This document shows, piece by piece, positions 34,710-46,980 of a stretch of DNA of 64,000 bases. A model generated the notes under the pieces. It saw nothing but the letters and a program-made list of their open reading frames with translations, did no database searches and was not told the DNA's origin. Made by a program: the position numbers and the translations under genes. The DNA is taken from assembly GCA_019186945.1 (NCBI GenBank), contig JABAQJ010000002.1:337897-401896 (forward strand), given 5' to 3'. The DNA is from Gemmatimonadaceae bacterium (GTDB taxonomy: Bacteria > Gemmatimonadota > Gemmatimonadetes > Gemmatimonadales > Gemmatimonadaceae). Numbering within the stretch: position 1 is the first letter of the stretch; each line of letters begins with the position of its first letter.

Positions 34710-36506
34710 TTGCAGCTCGACCACATCCGCAACTTTTGTATCATCGCGCACATCGATCACGGCAAGTCCACGTTGGCCGATCGGCTGATCGAGGCCACCT
34801 CGACGATCGAGAAGCGCGAAATGAAGGAGCAGGTGCTGGACACACTGGACCTGGAGCGGGAGCGCGGCATCACGATCAAGCTCAACGCGGTCCGCATGAC
34901 GTATGAGGCGCCCGCCGGCGGCGTCTTCGAGCTGAACCTGATCGACACACCGGGACACGTCGACTTCACCTATGAGGTGTCGCGTTCGCTCGCTGCCTGT
35001 GAAGGGGCGATCCTGGTGGTGGACGCGTCGCAGGGAATCCAGGCGCAGACGCTGTCCAACCTGTTTCTTGCGCTCGATGCGGGACTCGACATCATCCCCG
35101 TACTCAACAAGATCGATCTGCCGGGTGCAGAGCCCGACCGGCGCAAGAAAGAAGTGCACGACCTGATCGGGGCCAACGAAGAGGACATACTGCTGGTCAG
35201 CGCCAAGGAGGGCGTCGGCATCCCGGCGCTGCTGGACGCGATCGTCGCGCGCGTGCGCCCTCCGGTGGGCAAGCCGGATGCGCCGCTTCGGGCGCTGATC
35301 TTCGATTCGTACTACGACCGGTATCGGGGCGCCATCCCCAGCATTCGGGTGGTCGACGGTTCCATTCGCCCTGGTATGGAGATCACGTTCGGTGCCAACG
35401 CCGGTCAGTACGAGGTGGCGGAGGTCGGATATCTCCAGTTGCGACAGGTCAAGGCCGCAGAGCTGTCGGCGGGCGAGGTCGGTTACGTGGTGGCCAACGT
35501 TCGCTCCGTGAAGGAGACGCGGGCCGGCGACACGATTTTCGATGCCAGTCATCCTGCCGGAGAGGCGTTGCCCGGCTACAAGGAGGTCCACTCGATGGTG
35601 TTCGCGGGCATATATCCCACGGACACCACCCAGTACGAGAACCTGCGCGACGCGCTGTCCAAGTTGCAGCTGAACGACGCGTCCCTCCGATACGAGCCGG
35701 AGACCTCGGTCGCGCTGGGCTTCGGCTTCCGTTGCGGATTTCTCGGTCTGCTTCACATGGAGATCGTGCAGGAGCGCCTGGAGCGTGAGTTCAACCTGGA
35801 CCTGGTAACGACGGTGCCGAACGTGGAGTACCGCGTCTACTATCCGGACGGTACCATGGGCCTGATAGAGAATCCCTCCCGCATGCCGTCCGCCGGCACG
35901 CTCGATCGGATCGAGGAGCCGTTCGTCAAGGCCCGGATCGTATCGCCCGTCGACTATATCGGCCCGATCATGACGTTAGGCACCGAAAGGCGCGGCGTCT
36001 ACCACGGCATGCGGTACCTGGATACCACTCGCGTCGAATTCGACTGGGAGTTCCCGCTCGCGGAGATCGTCCTCGACTTCTACGACCGACTGAAAACGAT
36101 CTCGCGCGGGTATGCGAGCCTGGACTACGAACTGGGCGACTACCGCGCCAGTGAACTGGTGCGGCTGGACATGCTGATCAATGGCGATCCCATCGACGCG
36201 TTCAGCGTGATCATCCACCGGGACAAGGCATACGAGTGGGGGCGCAAGATCGCCGACAAGCTCAAGGAACTGATTCCGCGGCAGCTGTTCGAGGTGGCGA
36301 TCCAGGCAACGATCGGAAACAAGGTGATTGCACGAACCACGGTGAAGCCGCTGCGCAAGGACGTCCTCGCCAAGTGCTACGGCGGCGACATCACCAGGAA
36401 ACGCAAGCTCCTCGAAAAGCAGAAAGAGGGAAAGCGGCGGATGAAGCAGGTCGGAGCGGTCGAGATCCCCCAGGAGGCGTTCCTGGCCGTCCTGCAAGTC
36501 GATTAG
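34710..36506 (+). CDS. lepA: Elongation factor 4 (LepA)
   Basis: This 598-aa translational GTPase back-translocates or remodels ribosomes and supports initiation and stress tolerance. The G domain reads [18 protein letters not shown] (G1), [21 protein letters not shown] (G3) and NKIDLPGA (G4). The LepA-specific C-terminal domain ends [26 protein letters not shown]. Domains and length (about 600 aa) are canonical. The start is a TTG at 34710: homologues begin only a few residues before [16 protein letters not shown] and no in-frame ATG or GTG lies nearby. The next gene follows 17 bases after the stop. Confidence 0.95.
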
Positions 36507-38415: not shown

Positions 38416-39417
38416 ATGTCCACCACAGTTCGCACCCGTTACATCGTTGGCGTCGATTTGGGCGGTACCAACATCGTAGCAGCGGCTCTGCCCGAGGATG
38501 GGAGCCGGACGTATGCCGTACGCACCGAGTTGACGCTGGCATCGCAGGGTGCCGATGCGGTGGTTGACCGGATGGTGGGCATGATCGAGAGCGTGATCGC
38601 GGACACGATGACTGTCACGGGGGCCGAGCGTGGCGATTTCGCCGGCGTCGGCGTGGGAGCGCCGGGGCCGCTGGATCGCGATCGCGGGATCGTGATCACG
38701 ACGCCGAACCTAGGCTGGACAAATTTCCCGCTGCGGGACGTGATTGCCTCCCGGGTGGGGTTGCACGCCACGATCGACAACGACGCGAACTGCGCCACGC
38801 TGGGCGAGTGGTGGCTGGGCGCGGCGGCGGGCGGACGCAACGTGGTCGGCATGACGATCGGCACGGGTATCGGCGGAGGTTTGATCCTCGATGGGCAGTT
38901 GTACCACGGTTCGGCCGACGTCGCTGGCGAAATCGGACACACCACGATCGACATCACCGGCCGGCGCTGCAAGTGCGGCAACTACGGATGCCTGGAGGCC
39001 TATGCGTCGGGGCCGTCGATCGCCGAGCGGGCGCGAGAGGCGTTAGGCGGCGATGCGGACTCGGTGCTCCACACCATGGTGGGTGGCGATCTGGATCGAC
39101 TGACGGCGGCTATCGTTTACGAAGGCGCGCATCGTGGTGACGAGTTGAGTCTCGAGGTCGTGCGGGAGACAGCCCGATTCCTGGGCGCGGGCATCGCCAA
39201 TCTGCTCAACATCTTCAACCCGGACGTCGTGGTGATCGCCGGCGGCGTTACCCAGGCCGGCGACAAGCTGTTCGATCCTCTGCGCAAGGAGGTGCGCAAG
39301 CGCGCGTTCCGGCCCGCGGTCGAAGCGTGTCGTATCGTGCCGGGATCGTTGCCGGGGACGGCCGGCGTCGTGGGAGCGGTGGCGACATTCAGGCAACAGG
39401 TGCCTGGCGTTTCCTGA
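38416..39417 (+). CDS. ROK-family sugar kinase (glucokinase-like)
   Basis: The 333-aa product is a ROK kinase that should phosphorylate glucose or a related hexose. It shows the ATP loop GVDLGGTNI (about 12-20), GAPGPLD, the catalytic DNDANCATLGEWW (Asp of DNDA), GTGIGGGLI and GEIGHTTID. It also has the zinc motif CKCGNYGCLE (CxCGxxGCxE), in which three Cys and a His bind zinc, and VIAGGVTQAG. There is no N-terminal helix-turn-helix, so it is an enzyme and not a ROK repressor. It heads a run of six closely spaced genes to 43289. Sugar preference cannot be read from the sequence; ROK glucokinases are the nearest functional class. Confidence 0.88.
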   Translation: MSTTVRTRYIVGVDLGGTNIVAAALPEDGSRTYAVRTELTLASQGADAVVDRMVGMIESVIADTMTVTGAERGDFAGVGVGAPGPLDRDRGIVITTPNLGWTNFPLRDVIASRVGLHATIDNDANCATLGEWWLGAAAGGRNVVGMTIGTGIGGGLILDGQLYHGSADVAGEIGHTTIDITGRRCKCGNYGCLEAYASGPSIAERAREALGGDADSVLHTMVGGDLDRLTAAIVYEGAHRGDELSLEVVRETARFLGAGIANLLNIFNPDVVVIAGGVTQAGDKLFDPLRKEVRKRAFRPAVEACRIVPGSLPGTAGVVGAVATFRQQVPGVS

Positions 39418-39431
39418 ACGAGGCAGCACGG

Positions 39432-40400
39432 GTGAGGCGCGTTGGCGTGCTGGGATCGTTTGTCTGGGACGTGATCCACGGACGCGATGTCCGATCGGCA
39501 CCGGTGGAGGAGTGGGGTGGAATTACCTACGCGCTCGCCGGTTTCGACGCCGCGCTGCCGGCGGACTGGGCGATAGTGCCGATCGCGAAGGTCGGCCGTG
39601 ATCTGGCCCCCCGGGCGCGGCAGTTCCTCGGCAGTCTGAAGCGGCTGGCTCCCGGTGCCGGGGCGATCGAAGTCGACGCGCGAACCAACCGCGTACAGCT
39701 TCGCTACGTCAACGCCGAGCGCCGAACGGAAGTGCTTTCCGGTGGCGTTCCGCCGTGGACGTTTGCGGCACTGCAGCCGCTGTTGAGGGATCTGGACGCC
39801 CTGTACCTGAACCTGATCAGCGGGTTCGAGCTGGACTTGGCCACCGCGCAGGACGTGCGCCGCGCTTTTCATGGTCCGATTTACCTGGACCTGCATTCGT
39901 TGATGCTGGCACTGCAGCCGGATGGTCTGCGCACGTTGCAGCCGCTGCCCGACGCTGCCGGGTGGTGCGGCTGTGCCGACCTGTTGCAGGTGAACGAGGA
40001 CGAGATGTCGATGATGGCCAGCGATCCGCTGGCGTTGGCGGCGATCGCGATGGCGCGCGGCGTCCGGTCGCTCGTCGTGACGCTGGGCGCGCGAGGACTC
40101 GTCTACGTGAACGCCCCGTCGTTCGAACGTCTCGATCCCGGACGCGCATCCGGAATCGCGCCGGTCGGTGGCGCGATCCGCACCGCCCTCGTGCCGCCGA
40201 TGCCGCGATCTGTCAAGACCGAAGGAGACCCGACAGGGTGCGGCGACGTTCTTGGCGCGACCTATTTCTCACGGCTCCTCGCGGGTGATATGTTTGCCGA
40301 GGCGCTCCGCGTCGCTACCATTGCGGCAGCGCGGAATGTGGACTATCGGGGCGCGAGCGGGCTCGCGTCGTATCTTCGTGGAGAACTGATCACATCGTGA
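39432..40400 (+). CDS. PfkB-family carbohydrate kinase
   Basis: The 322-aa product is a PfkB/ribokinase-fold kinase. It begins VRRVGVLGSFVWDVIHG (the PfkB N-terminal strand), keeps a GGITYALAGFDAALP block, and has LLQVNEDEMSMM (substrate/ATP side). It ends with the signature GDPTGCGDVLGATYF, where the last Asp of GCGD is the catalytic base. Substrates in the family range from sugars to nucleosides. The GTG at 39432 was chosen because it follows the ROK stop by 14 bases and puts the domain start correctly; an earlier start at 39327 overlaps the ROK gene. The stop overlaps the next GTG (GTGA at 40397-40400), so translation is coupled. A sugar kinase coupled to the next regulatory gene is unusual. 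Confidence 0.82.
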   Translation: MRRVGVLGSFVWDVIHGRDVRSAPVEEWGGITYALAGFDAALPADWAIVPIAKVGRDLAPRARQFLGSLKRLAPGAGAIEVDARTNRVQLRYVNAERRTEVLSGGVPPWTFAALQPLLRDLDALYLNLISGFELDLATAQDVRRAFHGPIYLDLHSLMLALQPDGLRTLQPLPDAAGWCGCADLLQVNEDEMSMMASDPLALAAIAMARGVRSLVVTLGARGLVYVNAPSFERLDPGRASGIAPVGGAIRTALVPPMPRSVKTEGDPTGCGDVLGATYFSRLLAGDMFAEALRVATIAAARNVDYRGASGLASYLRGELITS

Positions 40401-41287
40401 CTACCGTCATCACCGTTCCGCCTTCACTCGATGACGAGACGTTTGAACAGGTGTTCGACCAGCTTGCCCCGGTCCCGGCCGACGAGAAGGTTTTGATCGA
40501 CGCGCGCCATACTCGATGGTCCTCGCCATTCGGGCTGACAGCGCTGCTGACCGTCGGACAGTCGCGGGAGGTCCGCGCCGACTTCACCGGACCGGAGGCA
40601 GAGGACACGGCCAGCTACTGGCAGCGCGCGGGCTTCTATCGGCACGCGGAAGAATTGTTTGAGCTGCACGGCCACGTACCTCGCGCCCGGAACCTCAGCG
40701 GCGAGTCCAACGTTCTGCTCGAAATCACGCCCGTCGAAAAGAGCGACGACGTTCATGGCGTCGTCGAACGCATTCAGACGAAGGCGCAGGTCATCCTCGT
40801 CAATGAGTTGAACCTGGACGCGCAGACCACGATGCGCTTTGCCATGACGCTGTCCGAGGCTTGCCAGAACATCGTCGAACATGCCGAGGCGCGCGGGTGG
40901 GTGGCGGTGCAGACCTATACCTGGCGCCAGCGGCTGGGTCGCCGTGTGGTCGTCATCGCCGTTTGCGACGCAGGCATCGGCTTCCGTCGATCGCTGGAAA
41001 TGGCCCAGGGACGGAAGCGGATCGATCGCTGGGATGACGGAGTAGCTCTCGAGGACGCCGTCGTCCGCGGAGTCAGCCGCTTTCATGACCCAGGCCGTGG
41101 CCAGGGACTCGCCGGTGTCCAGCGTTTCGTGGCAAAATGGGACGGCAAGCTGTCGATCCGCAGCGGTACTGCGCGCATCGCCATCGTGCCACCGTGGGAT
41201 ACGGACACCCCACTCCTCAGGCACCTCCCGCCATTCCCGGGCGCGCAGTTGCAGATCACTATTCCGGAGCGAGTAGTTTCACGGTGA
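40397..41287 (+). CDS. STAS-like plus HATPase (anti-sigma-factor-kinase-type) protein
   Basis: The 296-aa cytoplasmic protein joins two regulatory folds. Residues 1-110 look like a STAS-type domain (KVLIDARHTRWSSPFGLTALLTV). Residues 115-265 form a GHKL ATPase domain with N box EACQNIVEHA (154-163), G1 CDAGIGF (190-196) and G2 GRGQGL (233-238). These are the marks of RsbW/SpoIIAB-like kinases and other HATPase regulators, which bind and often phosphorylate STAS partners. The GTG start overlaps the PfkB stop and its own stop overlaps the next GTG (41284-41287), where a STAS-like gene begins. I infer a partner-switching module tied to carbohydrate kinases; sigma-factor control is not shown. Confidence 0.78.
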   Translation: MTTVITVPPSLDDETFEQVFDQLAPVPADEKVLIDARHTRWSSPFGLTALLTVGQSREVRADFTGPEAEDTASYWQRAGFYRHAEELFELHGHVPRARNLSGESNVLLEITPVEKSDDVHGVVERIQTKAQVILVNELNLDAQTTMRFAMTLSEACQNIVEHAEARGWVAVQTYTWRQRLGRRVVVIAVCDAGIGFRRSLEMAQGRKRIDRWDDGVALEDAVVRGVSRFHDPGRGQGLAGVQRFVAKWDGKLSIRSGTARIAIVPPWDTDTPLLRHLPPFPGAQLQITIPERVVSR

Positions 41288-41838
41288 AACACTTTATTGA
41301 TGTCAGTGTGGTTCTTCGCCAGACCGGTTCTGGCCAGTATTCGAACCTGGTCACGCGATCGACTGGCGCCGCCGTGCGGCAGGAGATCGAGCTGGCGGTG
41401 GCTGCGCTGCCCGAACGCACCCTGACGATTATCGATTTTTCGTCGGTGGGAATGATGGACTTCTCGTGCGCCGACGAAGTGGTGGGCAAACTCCTCAACG
41501 ATATCCGGCGCGGCCCCGAACCGCGCGAAGTGTACATCGCAGTGAGCGGCGTGGGAGATTCGCACCTCGAGGCGATCGAGACTGTGCTCGAATGCTACGG
41601 GCTCGCGGTCGTCGTGGAGGACGCACACGGCCCCTGGCGTGTCGTCGGTCCGCTCGACGACGATTCGCGCCGTGCCTGCAATGCCGTCAACCGGCGCGGA
41701 CGGGCATGCGCCGCGGACATCGCTCCCGAACTGGGGGAATCGGCCGACCTCACGGACCGCACGCTCAATACGCTCTGGGAACGCCGACTCGTTATGCGCG
41801 ACGCGAACGGCTATTTGGCGTTGCAGATGGCGCTGTGA
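41284..41838 (+). CDS. STAS-like regulatory protein with winged-helix-like C-terminus
   Basis: The 184-aa product begins VKHFIDVSVVLRQTGSGQY and has a STAS/DUF4325-like core (about 30-110: LTIIDFSSVGMMDFSCADEVVGKLLNDI, then VYIAVSGV). The C-terminal 65 residues (ADLTDRTLNTLWERRLVMRDANGYLAL) read like a small winged-helix wing. STAS proteins bind HATPase kinases and are switched by phosphorylation of a Ser or Thr; here Ser residues occur in DFSSVG and DFSCAD. It is translationally coupled to the HATPase gene (GTGA) and to the small gene that follows (GTGA at 41835-41838). The likely role is target or antagonist of the HATPase protein. DNA binding is a guess from the C-terminal pattern. Confidence 0.65.
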   Translation: MKHFIDVSVVLRQTGSGQYSNLVTRSTGAAVRQEIELAVAALPERTLTIIDFSSVGMMDFSCADEVVGKLLNDIRRGPEPREVYIAVSGVGDSHLEAIETVLECYGLAVVVEDAHGPWRVVGPLDDDSRRACNAVNRRGRACAADIAPELGESADLTDRTLNTLWERRLVMRDANGYLALQMAL

Positions 41839-42134
41839 CGCGATCTTTCAACCCGCCCCTGCAGGTGGTCGGGTTCATCGGCACGCGCGCCGGCGAACCG
41901 GACCGCGGCCCGCTGGTCCGACTCTCCACGAGCGAAGCGTCGCTCCGCATGCTCTCCCGGGGAGAAATGGTCTGGGTCTACGGCCCGCGACGTCACGACC
42001 TCGCAACGGTCGAGATCGACGACACCGTTCCCAAAGGCGGTGTCGTCGTCCGCGACATCGCCGGCATCGCCGTGTCCGAAATCGTGCGCCTGGTCAAGCC
42101 CGACCTCGATCGCCGCGGCGGCAGATTCGCCTGA
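41835..42134 (+). CDS. Small conserved-looking protein in the PfkB/STAS operon
   Basis: The 99-aa product starts at a GTG that overlaps the previous stop (GTGA). It is a compact, beta-rich, charged protein: GFIGTRAGEPDRGPLVRLS, LRMLSRGEMVWVYGPRRHDLATVEIDD, then PKGGVVVRDIAGIAVSEIVRLVKPDLDRR. No signal peptide or membrane helix is seen and I do not recognise a family. The pattern of alternating strands with VVVRDIAGIAVSE could form a small beta barrel. Its tight coupling on one side and 9-base gap to the PLP-fold gene on the other argue that it belongs to the same system. Confidence 0.65.
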   Translation: MTRSFNPPLQVVGFIGTRAGEPDRGPLVRLSTSEASLRMLSRGEMVWVYGPRRHDLATVEIDDTVPKGGVVVRDIAGIAVSEIVRLVKPDLDRRGGRFA

Positions 42135-42143
42135 GACGACCGC

Positions 42144-43289
42144 ATGCCCGACTGCGACCCAGGCTCCGTGTCTCTCGCCACGTTGCTCCTCGGGGCGGGC
42201 CGCACCAGGGACATTGCCGGAGTGCCGGCGGCACCCCCGACGGATTCAGGGAGCATCACCCGGATAGCCGGCGAGCGACCGGCTGCGTTCCAGCCCGACG
42301 CGGTCGACGTCGTCCTCCTTCACAAGCAGATCGCGGCCATCGAAGGCGCCGAGGACGCGCTCATCCTCGCTGGCGGTGCGGTGTTACCCTGTGCCCTCCT
42401 CGCGCTCCTGCGCCCCGGCGATCATCTCATTGCCAGCCGATTGGTCGGTAGCGCCGAGCGATCTCTCTTCCAGCACGAGTTCTCTCGACTCGGCATCGAC
42501 GTCACCACCGTCGATCCCCTTGCCAGTCGCGCCTGGCGCCAGGCGCTACGGAAGGAAACGCGTGCTGTGTTCGCCGCGACACCCAGCGATGTGGCTGGTC
42601 GCGTGCTGGATTTGCGACCGCTCTCGCAGCTGACGAGGGATGCCGGCCTTGCCCTGATCGTCGATAGCACGCGTGCCTCGCCGATCAATTTCCGAGCGCT
42701 CGACCTGGGTGCTGACGTCGTCGTCCACGCTGAAGCCACGTCCCTGAGCGGCTTCGACGAAGTGGCCGACGGCATCGTGGTCGGCACCGCGCCCTATATC
42801 GACGAAGTGCGCCACAAGATGATCGAGAGGAAAGCCACGCCGGATTCGTTCAGTTGCTGGCTTCTCGAACGCGGACTGCGAACGCTCGATGTACGCAGAC
42901 AGCGGCAGAACGACAACGCTGTCGCTCTTGCCCGCGTGCTCGCGAACCATCCCGACGTCCGTCGCGTTCACTACGCCGGCCTCGAATCCCACCCGGATCA
43001 CGAACTGGCCAGGGATACAATGTCGGGGTTCGGTGCCGCGCTGACCGTCGTGCTGGACGACGTAGCCGCCGCCACCCGTTTCTTGTCGCGACTCAGGATC
43101 TTCGCCGTTTCAACACGACTGGGCAGCGTTGCGTCGTTGGCATGCGAACCCCGGATCTCGCCGCACAACGACCTCACACCGTCCCAACGCAGCGAACTCG
43201 GGATCCCGGACGGCGCCGTGCGTTTGATCGCGGGAATCGAGGCTGCCAGCGATCTAATCGCCGATGTCGTGCAGGCGCTCGAACGCTGA
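42144..43289 (+). CDS. Cys/Met-metabolism PLP-fold protein lacking the catalytic lysine
   Basis: The 381-aa product aligns by eye with the trans-sulfuration family (cystathionine beta-lyase/gamma-synthase). It keeps LILAGGAVLPCALLALLRPGD, the cofactor-binding Asp in LALIVDSTRASP (usual vVDNTfaTP), LGADVVVHAEATS and the C-terminal carboxylate-binding Arg in GAVRLIAGIEA. In the active-site motif the Schiff-base Lys (usually STKY.GH) is replaced: T199 is followed by Ser200, with no Lys within 20 residues on either side. The N-terminal Tyr/Arg motif is also degraded. It therefore cannot work as a normal PLP enzyme and may be a binding or regulatory subunit. It ends the ROK-PfkB-STAS operon. Confidence 0.78.
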   Translation: MPDCDPGSVSLATLLLGAGRTRDIAGVPAAPPTDSGSITRIAGERPAAFQPDAVDVVLLHKQIAAIEGAEDALILAGGAVLPCALLALLRPGDHLIASRLVGSAERSLFQHEFSRLGIDVTTVDPLASRAWRQALRKETRAVFAATPSDVAGRVLDLRPLSQLTRDAGLALIVDSTRASPINFRALDLGADVVVHAEATSLSGFDEVADGIVVGTAPYIDEVRHKMIERKATPDSFSCWLLERGLRTLDVRRQRQNDNAVALARVLANHPDVRRVHYAGLESHPDHELARDTMSGFGAALTVVLDDVAAATRFLSRLRIFAVSTRLGSVASLACEPRISPHNDLTPSQRSELGIPDGAVRLIAGIEAASDLIADVVQALER

Positions 43290-43421
43290 ACGAGGACGCC
43301 ACGCGTGACGCCGCCGCAGGATTTCGCTTGGGGAGGCCTGCATTACCGGGCAGTTTGCAAGCCTTCGTGGATCCTGATCGTCTAGATTGTGGTACGCGTC
43401 CAGACACCGGACCCTCGACTC

Positions 43422-44117
43422 GTGATCCGATTCGCTAGCGTCTTCAAGGAATACCCGCGCACTGGACTGGCGCTCAGTGACGTCTCGTTCACAGTGCAGA
43501 AGGGAGAGTTCGTCTTTCTCACGGGACCGAGTGGCGCCGGCAAGAGCACCATCCTGAAACTCATCTATCTGGACGAGTTTCCATCCAAGGGGGACGTCTG
43601 GATCGCGGGTGCGCGCAGCCGACAGGTCAAGCGGCGCGAGGTACCTCTGCTCCGCCGCAAGCTGGGCGTCGTCTTTCAGGATTTTCGACTGCTGGACGAT
43701 CGTACTGTGGAAGCCAACGTCGGTTTTGCGCTGGAGGTGACGGGCGTTCCGCGCGATCGGATTCCGCCCAAGGTGTCGCGTCTGCTGACACAGGTCGGAT
43801 TGGCCTCGAAGGCCACGGCGTATCCCCGTGAACTGAGCGGAGGGGAGCAGCAGCGCGTCGCAATCGCCCGCGCACTGGTGAACGATCCGATGGTGCTGGT
43901 CGCCGACGAGCCTACTGGGAACCTGGATGAGCGCGCCACGCGCAGCGTATTCCAGCTCCTCAGGGACATCAACGCCTTGGGCACGGCAGTAATCATGGCA
44001 ACCCATGACCTCGATGTCGTGCGACGCGCGGACCTCCGCGTGCTGGAGATCAATCGTGGCCAGGTAGCTTTCGATTCGGCCGACGACTCGCGGGCCGGGA
44101 CGAGGGACGCGTCGTGA
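43422..44117 (+). CDS. ftsE: Cell-division ABC ATPase FtsE
   Basis: The product is about 231 aa from the GTG at 43422. It has Walker A GPSGAGKST, the Q-loop VFQDFRLLDDRTV (the FtsE-type 'QDfrLl'), signature LSGGEQQR, Walker B MVLVADEPTGNLD and the His switch ATHD. FtsE with the membrane protein FtsX controls septal peptidoglycan hydrolysis. An in-frame GTG at 43389 would add 11 residues; I prefer 43422 because homologues start with 'MIrF..V.K.Y' and a -10-like TAGATT touches the earlier GTG. The stop overlaps the ftsX GTG (GTGA). The ftsE-ftsX-EnvC order makes the assignment firm. Confidence 0.92.
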   Translation: MIRFASVFKEYPRTGLALSDVSFTVQKGEFVFLTGPSGAGKSTILKLIYLDEFPSKGDVWIAGARSRQVKRREVPLLRRKLGVVFQDFRLLDDRTVEANVGFALEVTGVPRDRIPPKVSRLLTQVGLASKATAYPRELSGGEQQRVAIARALVNDPMVLVADEPTGNLDERATRSVFQLLRDINALGTAVIMATHDLDVVRRADLRVLEINRGQVAFDSADDSRAGTRDAS

Positions 44118-44965
44118 GGCTCGCGCTTCGCGAAGTGGCACTAGGCATGCGGCGCGCGCCGCTGCTTGGCATGCTGAGCGTCACGACGATCGCCTTCTCG
44201 CTGTTCGCATTCGGCCTTTTCTCGCTGGTAGCACTGAACATCCGGGAAGCGCTCCGCGCCGTCGAGTCGCAAGTGGAAATCCGCGCCTTCGTCGCGGATT
44301 CGACATCGGTAGACGACGTCGGGCGCGCGATGGAGGATGTTGCCACATACCGTGAGGTCGAACGCGTCGAGTACGTCTCACCCGACCAGGCGCTGGAGCG
44401 TGCACGGCAGGACTTGGGCGAGTTCAAGGATGTCTTCGATTCAGCATTTCTCCCCGGGTCGATCGACATACGGCTGCGCGATGGTTTTCGAGATCCAGCG
44501 ACCGTGAAGAGCGTGGCTGACCGGCTGCGCGCGTTCCCGATCATCGAGGACGTTCGGTACGGCGAGGAGTGGGTGTCCAAGCTGCATCGTATCCGTACTG
44601 TTGCGACGGTTGCGGGTGTGACGCTTGGCCTTGCATTCGCCGCGGTGGCGGTGATCGTCATTGGCGCGACGATCCGCATGGCCGTGCTGGCGCGCGGCCC
44701 CGAGATCTCGATAATGCGAATGGTGGGTGCTACCGACAGCTTCATTCGACGCCCATTCCTCATCGATGGATTCCTCAAGGGCATCGCCGGCGGACTGCTG
44801 GCGCTACTGCTCACCTGGCTGGCGAGCGTGTTGATCACGCGAACCTTCATTCAGACGGAGTTTTTCGATGCAACTCTGGCGGCATCAGGCGTGGTGGGTG
44901 GGGCCTTGATTGGTCTTCTGGGAAGTGCCTTCTCCGTCAACCGTCACCTGCGACTGGTCAGGTGA
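44114..44965 (+). CDS. ftsX: Cell-division permease FtsX
   Basis: The 283-aa integral membrane protein has one N-terminal helix (about 15-40). A roughly 115-residue extracytoplasmic loop follows (VEIRAFVADSTSVDDVGRAM ... PGSIDIRLRDGF), and then three C-terminal helices (from about 160). It contains the FtsX family sequence EISIMRMVGATDSFIRRPFLIDG. The loop is where FtsX meets its periplasmic activator. The GTG start overlaps the ftsE stop by four bases and the stop overlaps the next ATG by one base (TGATG at 44963-44967), so all three proteins are probably made in fixed ratio. Confidence 0.93.
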   Translation: MRLALREVALGMRRAPLLGMLSVTTIAFSLFAFGLFSLVALNIREALRAVESQVEIRAFVADSTSVDDVGRAMEDVATYREVERVEYVSPDQALERARQDLGEFKDVFDSAFLPGSIDIRLRDGFRDPATVKSVADRLRAFPIIEDVRYGEEWVSKLHRIRTVATVAGVTLGLAFAAVAVIVIGATIRMAVLARGPEISIMRMVGATDSFIRRPFLIDGFLKGIAGGLLALLLTWLASVLITRTFIQTEFFDATLAASGVVGGALIGLLGSAFSVNRHLRLVR

Positions 44966-46167
44966 TGCGGCGGGTACCGGTCCTGGCCGTGGCCACGATC
45001 GTGGCATGCGCGACGCCTTGGCCGACGCTCATGGCCCAGTCTTCCGTGGACCAGCGACTGCGGGCACAGCGCGAGGAACTGGACCGCATCCGGCGCGAGC
45101 GCGACGAACTCCAGCGAAAGCGCTCCGTACTGGCGGGACGGGTACACGATCTCTCGGATGAAGTAGTGAATTCGCGCCGCCAGGCGGAAGCGACGGCTCG
45201 GCTCGTCCGCTCGCTCAACGCGCAGTTGGTCGCGATCGCCGCCGAAGTGGACTCGGCCTCGGCGCGCGTCGCCGCGGCACAGGATGAAGTCCGGAACAGG
45301 AACCGGGTGCTGCACCGTCGCGTCACAGACATATACAAGCGCGGTCCCCTGCACACGACGGAAGCATTGCTCTCCGCGCGATCGTTCGCCGAACTGGTGG
45401 CGCGCTACAAGTACCTGCACGAGCTTGCCCTGCGCGACCGATCGATGGTCAATCGCGTGCAGCAACTGTATGCCAGCATCGCGTCGCAACGGGAGCTGCT
45501 GGTGCGTTTGCAGGATGAGCTGGCCCGCAACAGGTCGGAGAAGCAGCGGGAGGAGCAGCGCCTTCGGAATCTGGTCGGAGCACGACAGGCGTCGCTCCTC
45601 CAGGCGCAGCAGACCGCGGCCGACGTCGAGGAACGCCTCAAGCGGATCGCCCGGGACGAGCAGCGGCTCGCCGACGTGATTGCGTCGCTCGAAGCGAGTC
45701 GACGCAAGGCAGAGGCCGCGCCTAACGCTGCCGCACCGACGACCAGCTCGATCCGGACGAGCGACTTCGGCAAGCTCGGCTGGCCGGTCGAGGGCGACAT
45801 CCTGTATCGGTTTGGACGCCTCGTCAACCCGAACAACACCACGATCCGATGGAATGGCATCGGAATACGCGCGGATGCCGGCGCGCAGGTGAAGGCGATC
45901 GCGGCCGGCGAGGTCATGGTGGCCGACCAGATCGGAACCTATGGCCAGACGGTTATCGTGCAGCACGGAGGCGGCGACTATTCGGTGTACGGTTCGTTAG
46001 GCCGGATAGACGTCCGGAAGGGGCAGCAGGTGATCAAGGGACAGGTAATCGGAACGGTAGGGCGCGCCGATCCGGACATGGATCCACACCTGCATTTCGA
46101 GATCCGGCCTAAGGGCAGAGCGATGGATCCGCTCGCCTGGCTGCAGGAGAGAAGCGGCCGTCGCTAG
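44965..46167 (+). CDS. EnvC-like murein hydrolase activator (degenerate LytM domain)
   Basis: The 400-aa secreted protein has a signal peptide (LAVATIVACATPWPTLMAQS). A long coiled coil follows (about 27-250, heptads rich in Arg, Glu and Leu), then a C-terminal M23/LytM domain (about 275-395). The first zinc motif (HxGxD) is replaced by NGIGIRADAGAQVKAIAAG and only the HLHFEIRP end is kept, just as in E. coli EnvC, which activates amidases rather than cutting wall itself. Placement directly after ftsE and ftsX, with a one-base overlap, makes it the presumed FtsEX-regulated activator. The two CGTTAGG-type motifs in the gene lie at 45721 and 45995. Confidence 0.88.
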   Translation: MRRVPVLAVATIVACATPWPTLMAQSSVDQRLRAQREELDRIRRERDELQRKRSVLAGRVHDLSDEVVNSRRQAEATARLVRSLNAQLVAIAAEVDSASARVAAAQDEVRNRNRVLHRRVTDIYKRGPLHTTEALLSARSFAELVARYKYLHELALRDRSMVNRVQQLYASIASQRELLVRLQDELARNRSEKQREEQRLRNLVGARQASLLQAQQTAADVEERLKRIARDEQRLADVIASLEASRRKAEAAPNAAAPTTSSIRTSDFGKLGWPVEGDILYRFGRLVNPNNTTIRWNGIGIRADAGAQVKAIAAGEVMVADQIGTYGQTVIVQHGGGDYSVYGSLGRIDVRKGQQVIKGQVIGTVGRADPDMDPHLHFEIRPKGRAMDPLAWLQERSGRR

Positions 46168-46263: not shown

Positions 46264-46980
46264 GTGTCCAGGCGCCGACTGATTACCGAACGCGACGTCC
46301 GGCGTGCCGTTCGGGAAGGATTGACCGCGATCGATGGGAGCGGAGCCGTCGTCACGCCCGCCGCGCTCGACGTGGCTCGCAAGCTGGGCATTGGCCTGAG
46401 CGGCGTGACGACGACGGACCGATCGTTTCGAAAGACCGGCATACCGGCCTCGGAGCACCGCTCCAGAGGCATCAGCCGACACTCGACCGCGCCTGTCTCC
46501 GCTCTCGACGCTCAGGAGGGTGACAGAGCCACGCGAACTCCGCTCCGGATCTCCATCGGATGCGATCACGGCGGGCTTGCCCTCAAGCAGCAGATCATCC
46601 AGCGGGTTCGTGAGCTCGGACACAGCGTTGACGATCGAGGAACGACGACACCAGAGGCGGTCGATTACCCGGACTTCGCAGTACTGGTCGCGCGCGACGT
46701 GGCTGCCGGGATCGCCGACCTCGGCATCATGGTGGACGGCGCGGGCATCGGCAGCTGCATGGCAGCCAACAAGGTTGCCGGCGTGCGAGCCGCGATGTGT
46801 TACGACGTCACGACCGCCCGAAACGCCCGCGAGCACAACCACGCGAACCTTTTGACGTTAGGTGCCGGACTCACGGGAACGCGCCTCGCATTCGAGATTG
46901 TCGATGCCTTCCTGTCCACGCAGGCGGGCGTGGGACGTCATGCTTCTCGTGTTGCGAAGATCGACGCCCTCCTGCGATGA
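46264..46980 (+). CDS. RpiB/LacAB-family isomerase with N-terminal extension and no catalytic Cys
   Basis: The 238-aa product has an extension (1-92) with LITERDVRRAVREG and VTPAALDVARKLGI. The 'ITE..vR ... vTPaA.d.....i' pattern recalls EutT/microcompartment-type proteins. The RpiB domain (94-238) keeps GCDHGGLALKQ, VDYPDFAV, AANKVAGVRAA and EHNHANLLTLGA, which interconvert ribose 5-phosphate and ribulose 5-phosphate. The usual catalytic Cys in ICGTGIG is replaced by Asp158 (VDGAGIG), although Cys165 lies seven residues on in GIGSCMAANK. It may therefore use another nucleophile or another sugar phosphate. GTG 46264 was chosen because it gives the ordered start; other starts are possible. No microcompartment shell gene is in the window. 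Confidence 0.75.
   Translation: MSRRRLITERDVRRAVREGLTAIDGSGAVVTPAALDVARKLGIGLSGVTTTDRSFRKTGIPASEHRSRGISRHSTAPVSALDAQEGDRATRTPLRISIGCDHGGLALKQQIIQRVRELGHSVDDRGTTTPEAVDYPDFAVLVARDVAAGIADLGIMVDGAGIGSCMAANKVAGVRAAMCYDVTTARNAREHNHANLLTLGAGLTGTRLAFEIVDAFLSTQAGVGRHASRVAKIDALLR

Follow-up and report, generated by a model that had tools for sequence, protein, structure and literature searches.

Composition of the operon

Two sugar kinases and a HATPase-STAS protein pair share a six-gene operon in a Gemmatimonadaceae bacterium (contig JABAQJ010000002.1), within a stretch of 64,000 nucleotides (positions 337,897 to 401,896) that is referred to here as the window. Judged by sequence profiles, gene order and domain architecture, the pair is homologous to CapK (a kinase) and CapS (the substrate of that kinase), which control bacterial immune operons, and it is retained by nearly all of one Gemmatimonadota class. 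All six genes lie on the + strand. The first encodes a ROK-family, glucokinase-like sugar kinase (38416..39417; Pfam ROK E 7e-71, 239 bits) and the second a PfkB-family kinase with a GTG start (39432..40400; Pfam PfkB E 5.5e-9 over residues 178-309, 36 bits). The pair itself comprises a CapK-like HATPase, in which an N-terminal STAS domain precedes the GHKL kinase domain (40397..41287; HATPase_c E 4e-7, 31 bits), and a CapS-like protein whose structure model places a STAS domain at residues ~1-122 and a winged helix at ~124-184 (41284..41838). A 99-amino-acid protein resembling, by profile matches, the C-terminal molybdopterin-binding (beta-barrel) domain follows at 41835..42134, and the operon ends with a Cys/Met-metabolism protein of the pyridoxal phosphate (PLP) fold that lacks the catalytic lysine (42144..43289; Cys_Met_Meta_PP 264 bits). 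The ROK and PfkB genes are 14 bases apart, GTGA overlaps join PfkB to HATPase, HATPase to STAS and STAS to the 99-residue gene, and 9 bases precede the PLP gene. The genes, lengths and junctions of the original prediction, which was made from the sequence alone, were all reproduced from the coordinates. Its naming of a HATPase and a STAS protein also stood, with the correction that the second protein carries a C-terminal winged helix and the HATPase a STAS domain of its own.

The model of the STAS protein, with a predicted local distance difference test (pLDDT) score of 89, displays the STAS fold followed by the winged helix. In VIA-align comparisons it matched RsbS at Z 9.4 over 100 residues (root-mean-square deviation, rmsd, 2.8) and SpoIIAA (1til) at Z 8.6 over 99 residues (rmsd 2.7), while its winged helix matched winged-helix structures at Z 9-10 over ~58 residues. 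The HATPase model (pLDDT 84) matches CheA P4, UsfX and RsbW; its first 95 residues have a weak sequence match to the STAS structure 4hyl (E 0.015), and STAS_2 was matched in 7 of 22 HATPase orthologues. The STAS-like family DUF4325 (PF14213) reached 12.6 bits with the STAS protein against a cut-off of 23, with weak matches in 3 of 22 orthologues. The collection of papers that was searched contained none about DUF4325 and none about Gemmatimonadetes partner switching.

The closest solved structures to the ROK protein are the glucokinases 2qm1 and 3vgk, and ROK_glcA_fam scores 238.5 bits, slightly below its cut-off of 260.35. The only other ROK match in the window's genome scores just 24.8 bits, which leaves the operon protein as the sole strong ROK protein there and, within this family, as the genome's one strong candidate for a glucokinase. 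The PfkB kinase has an unusual N-terminal half and retains the catalytic GCGD motif, with D272 of GDPTGCGD invariant among 26 aligned orthologues.

Relationship of the pair to CapK and CapS

Chambers et al. (EMBO J 2026; PMC13373217) described CapK as a kinase, and CapS as its substrate and a repressor, that together control immune operons. Activated by single-stranded DNA (ssDNA), CapK phosphorylates Ser54 of CapS, which dissolves the CapS dimer; CapS then releases DNA and the immune operon is expressed (PMC13373217). CapS is the Enterobacter STAS protein WP_001567865.1, solved as 9z71, and the main text of the paper mentions neither Gemmatimonadota nor sugars (PMC13373217). The profile of the Gemmatimonadota HATPases scored 31.5 bits against CapK, where the best of 1000 shuffles reached 4.4, and the STAS profile scored 19.8 bits against CapS, where the best of 1000 reached 4.1. 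The corresponding hhalign E values were 3.4e-9 and 1.7e-4, and a PDB search lists 9z71 as a weak match of the STAS protein. The original prediction had taken the partner switches of sigma factors and other targets as precedent; the closest precedent is instead CapK and CapS (PMC13373217). A PADLOC match of the HATPase to DrmA involved a small part of a 1750-position model, including its HATPase region, and was not counted as a sign of DISARM.

Relatives of the pair were also located by tblastn against plasmids. A Nostoc linckia plasmid (L162:6004-11038) carries both genes in unchanged order, and behind them a metallo-beta-lactamase-like gene, recognized with PADLOC models, and a Prok-E2/ThiF/JAB fusion. 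On a Sphingobium plasmid, a relative of the HATPase is succeeded by a STAS-winged-helix protein and by multiubiquitin and ThiF genes, and a third pair on Enterobacter plasmids likewise stands ahead of multiubiquitin and ThiF.

The comparison extends to individual residues, scored in 112 orthologues. Ser54 of CapS corresponds to Ser61 of the STAS protein, a predicted phosphosite present in 112/112 within the invariant motif D-x-S-C-x-D-E; T24-R25-x-T27-G28 forms a second invariant patch. Asn218 and Glu214 of CapK correspond to Asn158 and Glu154 of the HATPase, and E154, N158, D191, G193, G195, G233, G235 and G237 are each found in all 112. This residue-level homology makes a kinase-substrate relation between the two proteins likely. 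The groove region of the HATPase has W, Y or F at position 176 in 110/112, together with the near-invariant R179 and R182. Trp68 of CapK, which stacks on ssDNA, corresponds to Leu11 (Leu 105, Phe 6 and Val 1 of 112), a match that was made by ungapped comparison through the Sphingobium protein, the automatic alignment having a gap there; VapK, a related kinase, has Phe54 at this position (PMC13373217). The N-terminal helix-turn-helix (HTH) of CapK, whose deletion had no effect (PMC13373217), is not found on the window HATPase, which begins at the STAS domain.

Gene order, origin of the pair and variable genes

The HATPase and the STAS protein were each matched in 280 of 298 sampled Gemmatimonadota genomes as products of single-copy genes (nearly always so for STAS), and the unmatched genomes include fragmented assemblies. 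Both proteins are missing from every one of the six genomes of f11, an outlying family, and from families f8 and f10. In a scan of genome contigs, the best 80 of 467 relatives were nearly all Gemmatimonadota by title. One contig titled Candidatus Kuenenia stuttgartiensis (L138) carries a typical Gemmatimonadota version of the locus, and its bin is probably mislabelled.

Across 40 diverse loci of 11-18 kb, the order lepA-(waaF)-ROK-PfkB-HATPase-STAS recurs, with lepA as the conserved upstream neighbour by locus comparison (34710..36506, + strand, in the window). A set of 113 distinct Gemmatimonadota loci was used to count junctions. Here PfkB and HATPase share a strand in 109/109, with a 4-base overlap in 100 of these, the ROK-PfkB overlap of 4 bases is present in 32/99 loci, and HATPase and STAS share a strand in 111/111, lying no more than 60 bases apart in 108, of which 45 have the 4-base overlap. 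FtsE and FtsX, which form a known complex, overlap by 4 bases in 46/86. The gene arrangement exceeds chance, since the strand and overlap of PfkB and HATPase are kept to this degree compared with FtsE-FtsX. It is therefore the PfkB-HATPase coupling that is most constant, rather than the series of three GTGA overlaps emphasized at first. In one family f6 locus, the HATPase and STAS genes are separated by a reading frame that resembles a cyclophilin, a peptidyl-prolyl isomerase (L053:8411-8956).

The idea of a conserved HATPase-STAS pair tied to sugar kinases was thus borne out by the ROK-PfkB-HATPase-STAS order retained across the class. The five-gene order from PfkB to PLP, set beforehand as a test, proved conserved in its core across the class, while the full set with the 99-residue gene was seen in family f1 alone, to which the window belongs.

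A vacant version of the site is found in two f8 genomes, which have the order lepA-(waaF)-ROK-PfkB-PLP, with HATPase and STAS absent, an overlap of PfkB with PLP that measures 11 bases in one genome and 1 base in the other, and the PLP lysine present. In a lepA tree rooted on f11, f8 and f10 branch outside the pair-bearing families. With PfkB abutting PLP in the early-branching f8, the pair behaves like a cassette; one gain after the split of f8/f10 and one loss in f8 fit equally well. In addition, no pair was found next to lepA and PfkB in one f5 genome (G253).

Both the 99-residue protein and the PLP protein seem to be later developments, added or modified in particular lineages. The 99-residue protein is free-standing, with R24, R52, R73 and D74 invariant, and its profile matches are to the C-terminal domain of dimethyl sulfoxide/trimethylamine N-oxide reductases (7l5i, E 7e-5; 1dms, E 1.4e-4); Molydop_binding gave E 0.0014, below its cut-off. 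In the window's PLP protein, Thr199 occupies the position of the PLP-binding lysine of its relatives, as the original prediction of a dead fold implied. This is not a general feature of the operon, because the lysine is kept in 81 of 97 orthologues, and a dead PLP fold as a core component was ruled out on that ground. The 16 proteins without lysine arose by at least two losses, one in a single clade and a separate one in the window, when parsimony is applied to a tree that left out the columns in question and whose long branches make placement unsure. The other lysine-less loci of family f1 (L118, L121, L123-L125, L127, L129-L131, L133, L138, L140, L150, L154 and L061) have M, A, V, T, E, G, F or L in its place. 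The ratio of nonsynonymous to synonymous substitution rates was ~0.08 to 0.30 for lysine-less ortholog pairs and ~0.03 to 0.17 for lysine-bearing pairs, a result that applies to the lysine-less clade, as the window's PLP gene has no close relative. Purifying selection therefore keeps these proteins, which suggests a non-catalytic role for those of the clade. Two further members of the Cys/Met PLP family are encoded in the window's genome.

Proposed switch and competing explanations

The reading preferred here, to which a probability of about 0.6 is given, is that a CapK/CapS-type cassette, housed in a lepA-ROK-PfkB-(PLP enzyme) cluster older than itself and kept by nearly all of one Gemmatimonadota class, is a kinase-phosphoserine switch whose input has changed and whose target is probably a protein instead of DNA. 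A signal would be felt in the groove between the STAS and GHKL domains of the HATPase, which would then phosphorylate Ser61 of the STAS-winged-helix protein, breaking either its dimer or its grip on a partner. The output might be a protein contact, unlike the promoter repression exerted by CapS, and PfkB could be the first candidate target, so that sugar phosphorylation would be tuned to a stress or metabolite signal. PfkB is placed first because its overlap with the HATPase gene is conserved and because VapS, a related protein, acts directly on the enzyme of its own operon: VapS binds this enzyme, and phosphorylation frees it (PMC13373217). The VapK-VapS-VapC operon likewise joins a CapK/CapS-like kinase and STAS protein to an enzyme, though a PIN nuclease toxin instead of sugar kinases (PMC13373217). 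The likeness to CapK and CapS themselves lies in two adjacent genes in the same order and with the same domains, in the retained phosphoserine and kinase active site, and in the proximity of an operon that the pair could control. They differ in that CapK and CapS are scattered beside immune operons, whereas the Gemmatimonadota pair is fixed class-wide by sugar kinases, the PLP gene and ftsEX, and has no HTH on the kinase, another residue in place of Trp68, an acidic winged helix that lost the DNA-contacting residues, and no operator gap.

Several points weigh against this reading. Overall identity to CapK and CapS is low. The residue before Ser61 is Phe or Tyr, at the place where SpoIIAA and RsbV have the first Ser of the motif, their main phosphoserine, and the site is thus unlike SpoIIAA-type sites. 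In one f6 genome (G032), PfkB and the HATPase-STAS pair are both retained on different contigs, and the linkage of the pair to PfkB is therefore not obligatory. The winged helix could also bind DNA with other residues.

A true CapS-like repressor, in which the STAS-winged-helix protein would repress its own operon or another promoter until phosphorylated by the HATPase, is possible but improbable. The architecture and phosphosite are those of CapS, and the winged helices of several orthologues match the TrmB, MarR or IclR families. The DNA-contacting residues Asn145, Lys151 and Gly169-170 (the Gly-Gly of the wing), however, are not retained in the STAS orthologues; the Lys151 position is Asp or Glu in 77/112, and the mean net charge of the domain over the 112 orthologues is -1.8, compared with +4 in CapS. 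No CapS-like operator was found: the regions upstream of ROK had no operator-like repeat in common, the downstream set included coding DNA, and TTAA did not occur in the spacers that were searched. At the HATPase-STAS junction there is hardly any space for an operator, or none. The acidic position 151, the charge, the missing operator gap and the missing TTAA together disfavour CapS-type control of a promoter. A gap of ~150 bases between the 99-residue and PLP genes had been considered as a promoter region, along with the STAS-PLP spacers, and both were rejected as artefacts of the choice of start codon, the real gap between the 99-residue and PLP genes having a median of 16 bases.

Rather doubtful is a classical partner switch, with the HATPase as an anti-sigma factor, the STAS protein as its antagonist, a sigma factor encoded elsewhere and the kinases as mere neighbours. 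The GHKL and STAS folds do resemble RsbW, UsfX, RsbS and SpoIIAA, and the icfG operon of Synechocystis connects a GHKL kinase and STAS proteins with the metabolism of glucose and carbon, although it includes the IcfG phosphatase and an isoamylase and a sugar kinase pair is not described for it (PMC12329169). SpoIIAB/SpoIIAA and RsbW/RsbV are single-domain proteins acting on sigma factors, and the additional STAS domain of the kinase and the winged helix of its substrate fit CapK and CapS instead. Neither a sigma factor gene nor one for a PP2C phosphatase was noticed in the cluster, the lack of a phosphatase gene being a further difference from the SpoIIAB/SpoIIAA and RsbW/RsbV switches, and the genome was not searched for a sigma factor.

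Operon packing, whereby dense genomes preserve the order of proteins that have no common pathway, is given similarly low odds. Gene order around lepA is generally stable, and the separate contigs of the f6 genome point the same way, but the exact PfkB-HATPase overlap is commoner than that of FtsE and FtsX. Least probable is a CapK-like sensor of nucleic acids (DNA damage) merely parked in a metabolic operon, for although the groove keeps the aromatic residue and the arginines, Trp68, which CapK requires for activation by ssDNA, is replaced by Leu in nearly all orthologues, and immune genes are not adjacent to the pair.

A bolder extension of the preferred switch, a 'metabolic CapKS', is put forward only tentatively and is considered unlikely as a whole. 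An immune-type switch would have been captured once and become core in a bacterial class, losing ssDNA sensing and DNA binding and gating a sugar kinase by direct protein contact in answer to a metabolite, and on at least two occasions the PLP protein would have given up catalysis to serve as a partner in that assembly.

What is known of CapK and CapS is their scattered occurrence as a control unit for immune operons. That a class-wide relative is built into a sugar-kinase operon suggests the conversion of a portable stress switch into a fixed regulator of basic metabolism; if so, this single-copy relative would show that switches of this type can pass between defence and basic cell physiology, and it would offer a first handle on the control of sugar phosphorylation in Gemmatimonadota. 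The pair also provides a test case for the signal of the kinase once the ssDNA residue is gone, and the PLP gene a natural series at one locus, from enzyme to pseudo-enzyme.

Downstream of the operon in the window lie ftsE, ftsX and an EnvC-like gene (43389..46167, + strand; FtsE 280.6 bits, above cut-off), and among the 40 loci ftsEX occupies this position in families f1-f3 only. Further on, the RpiB gene (46264-46980), when read from its first start, has ~90 additional N-terminal residues.

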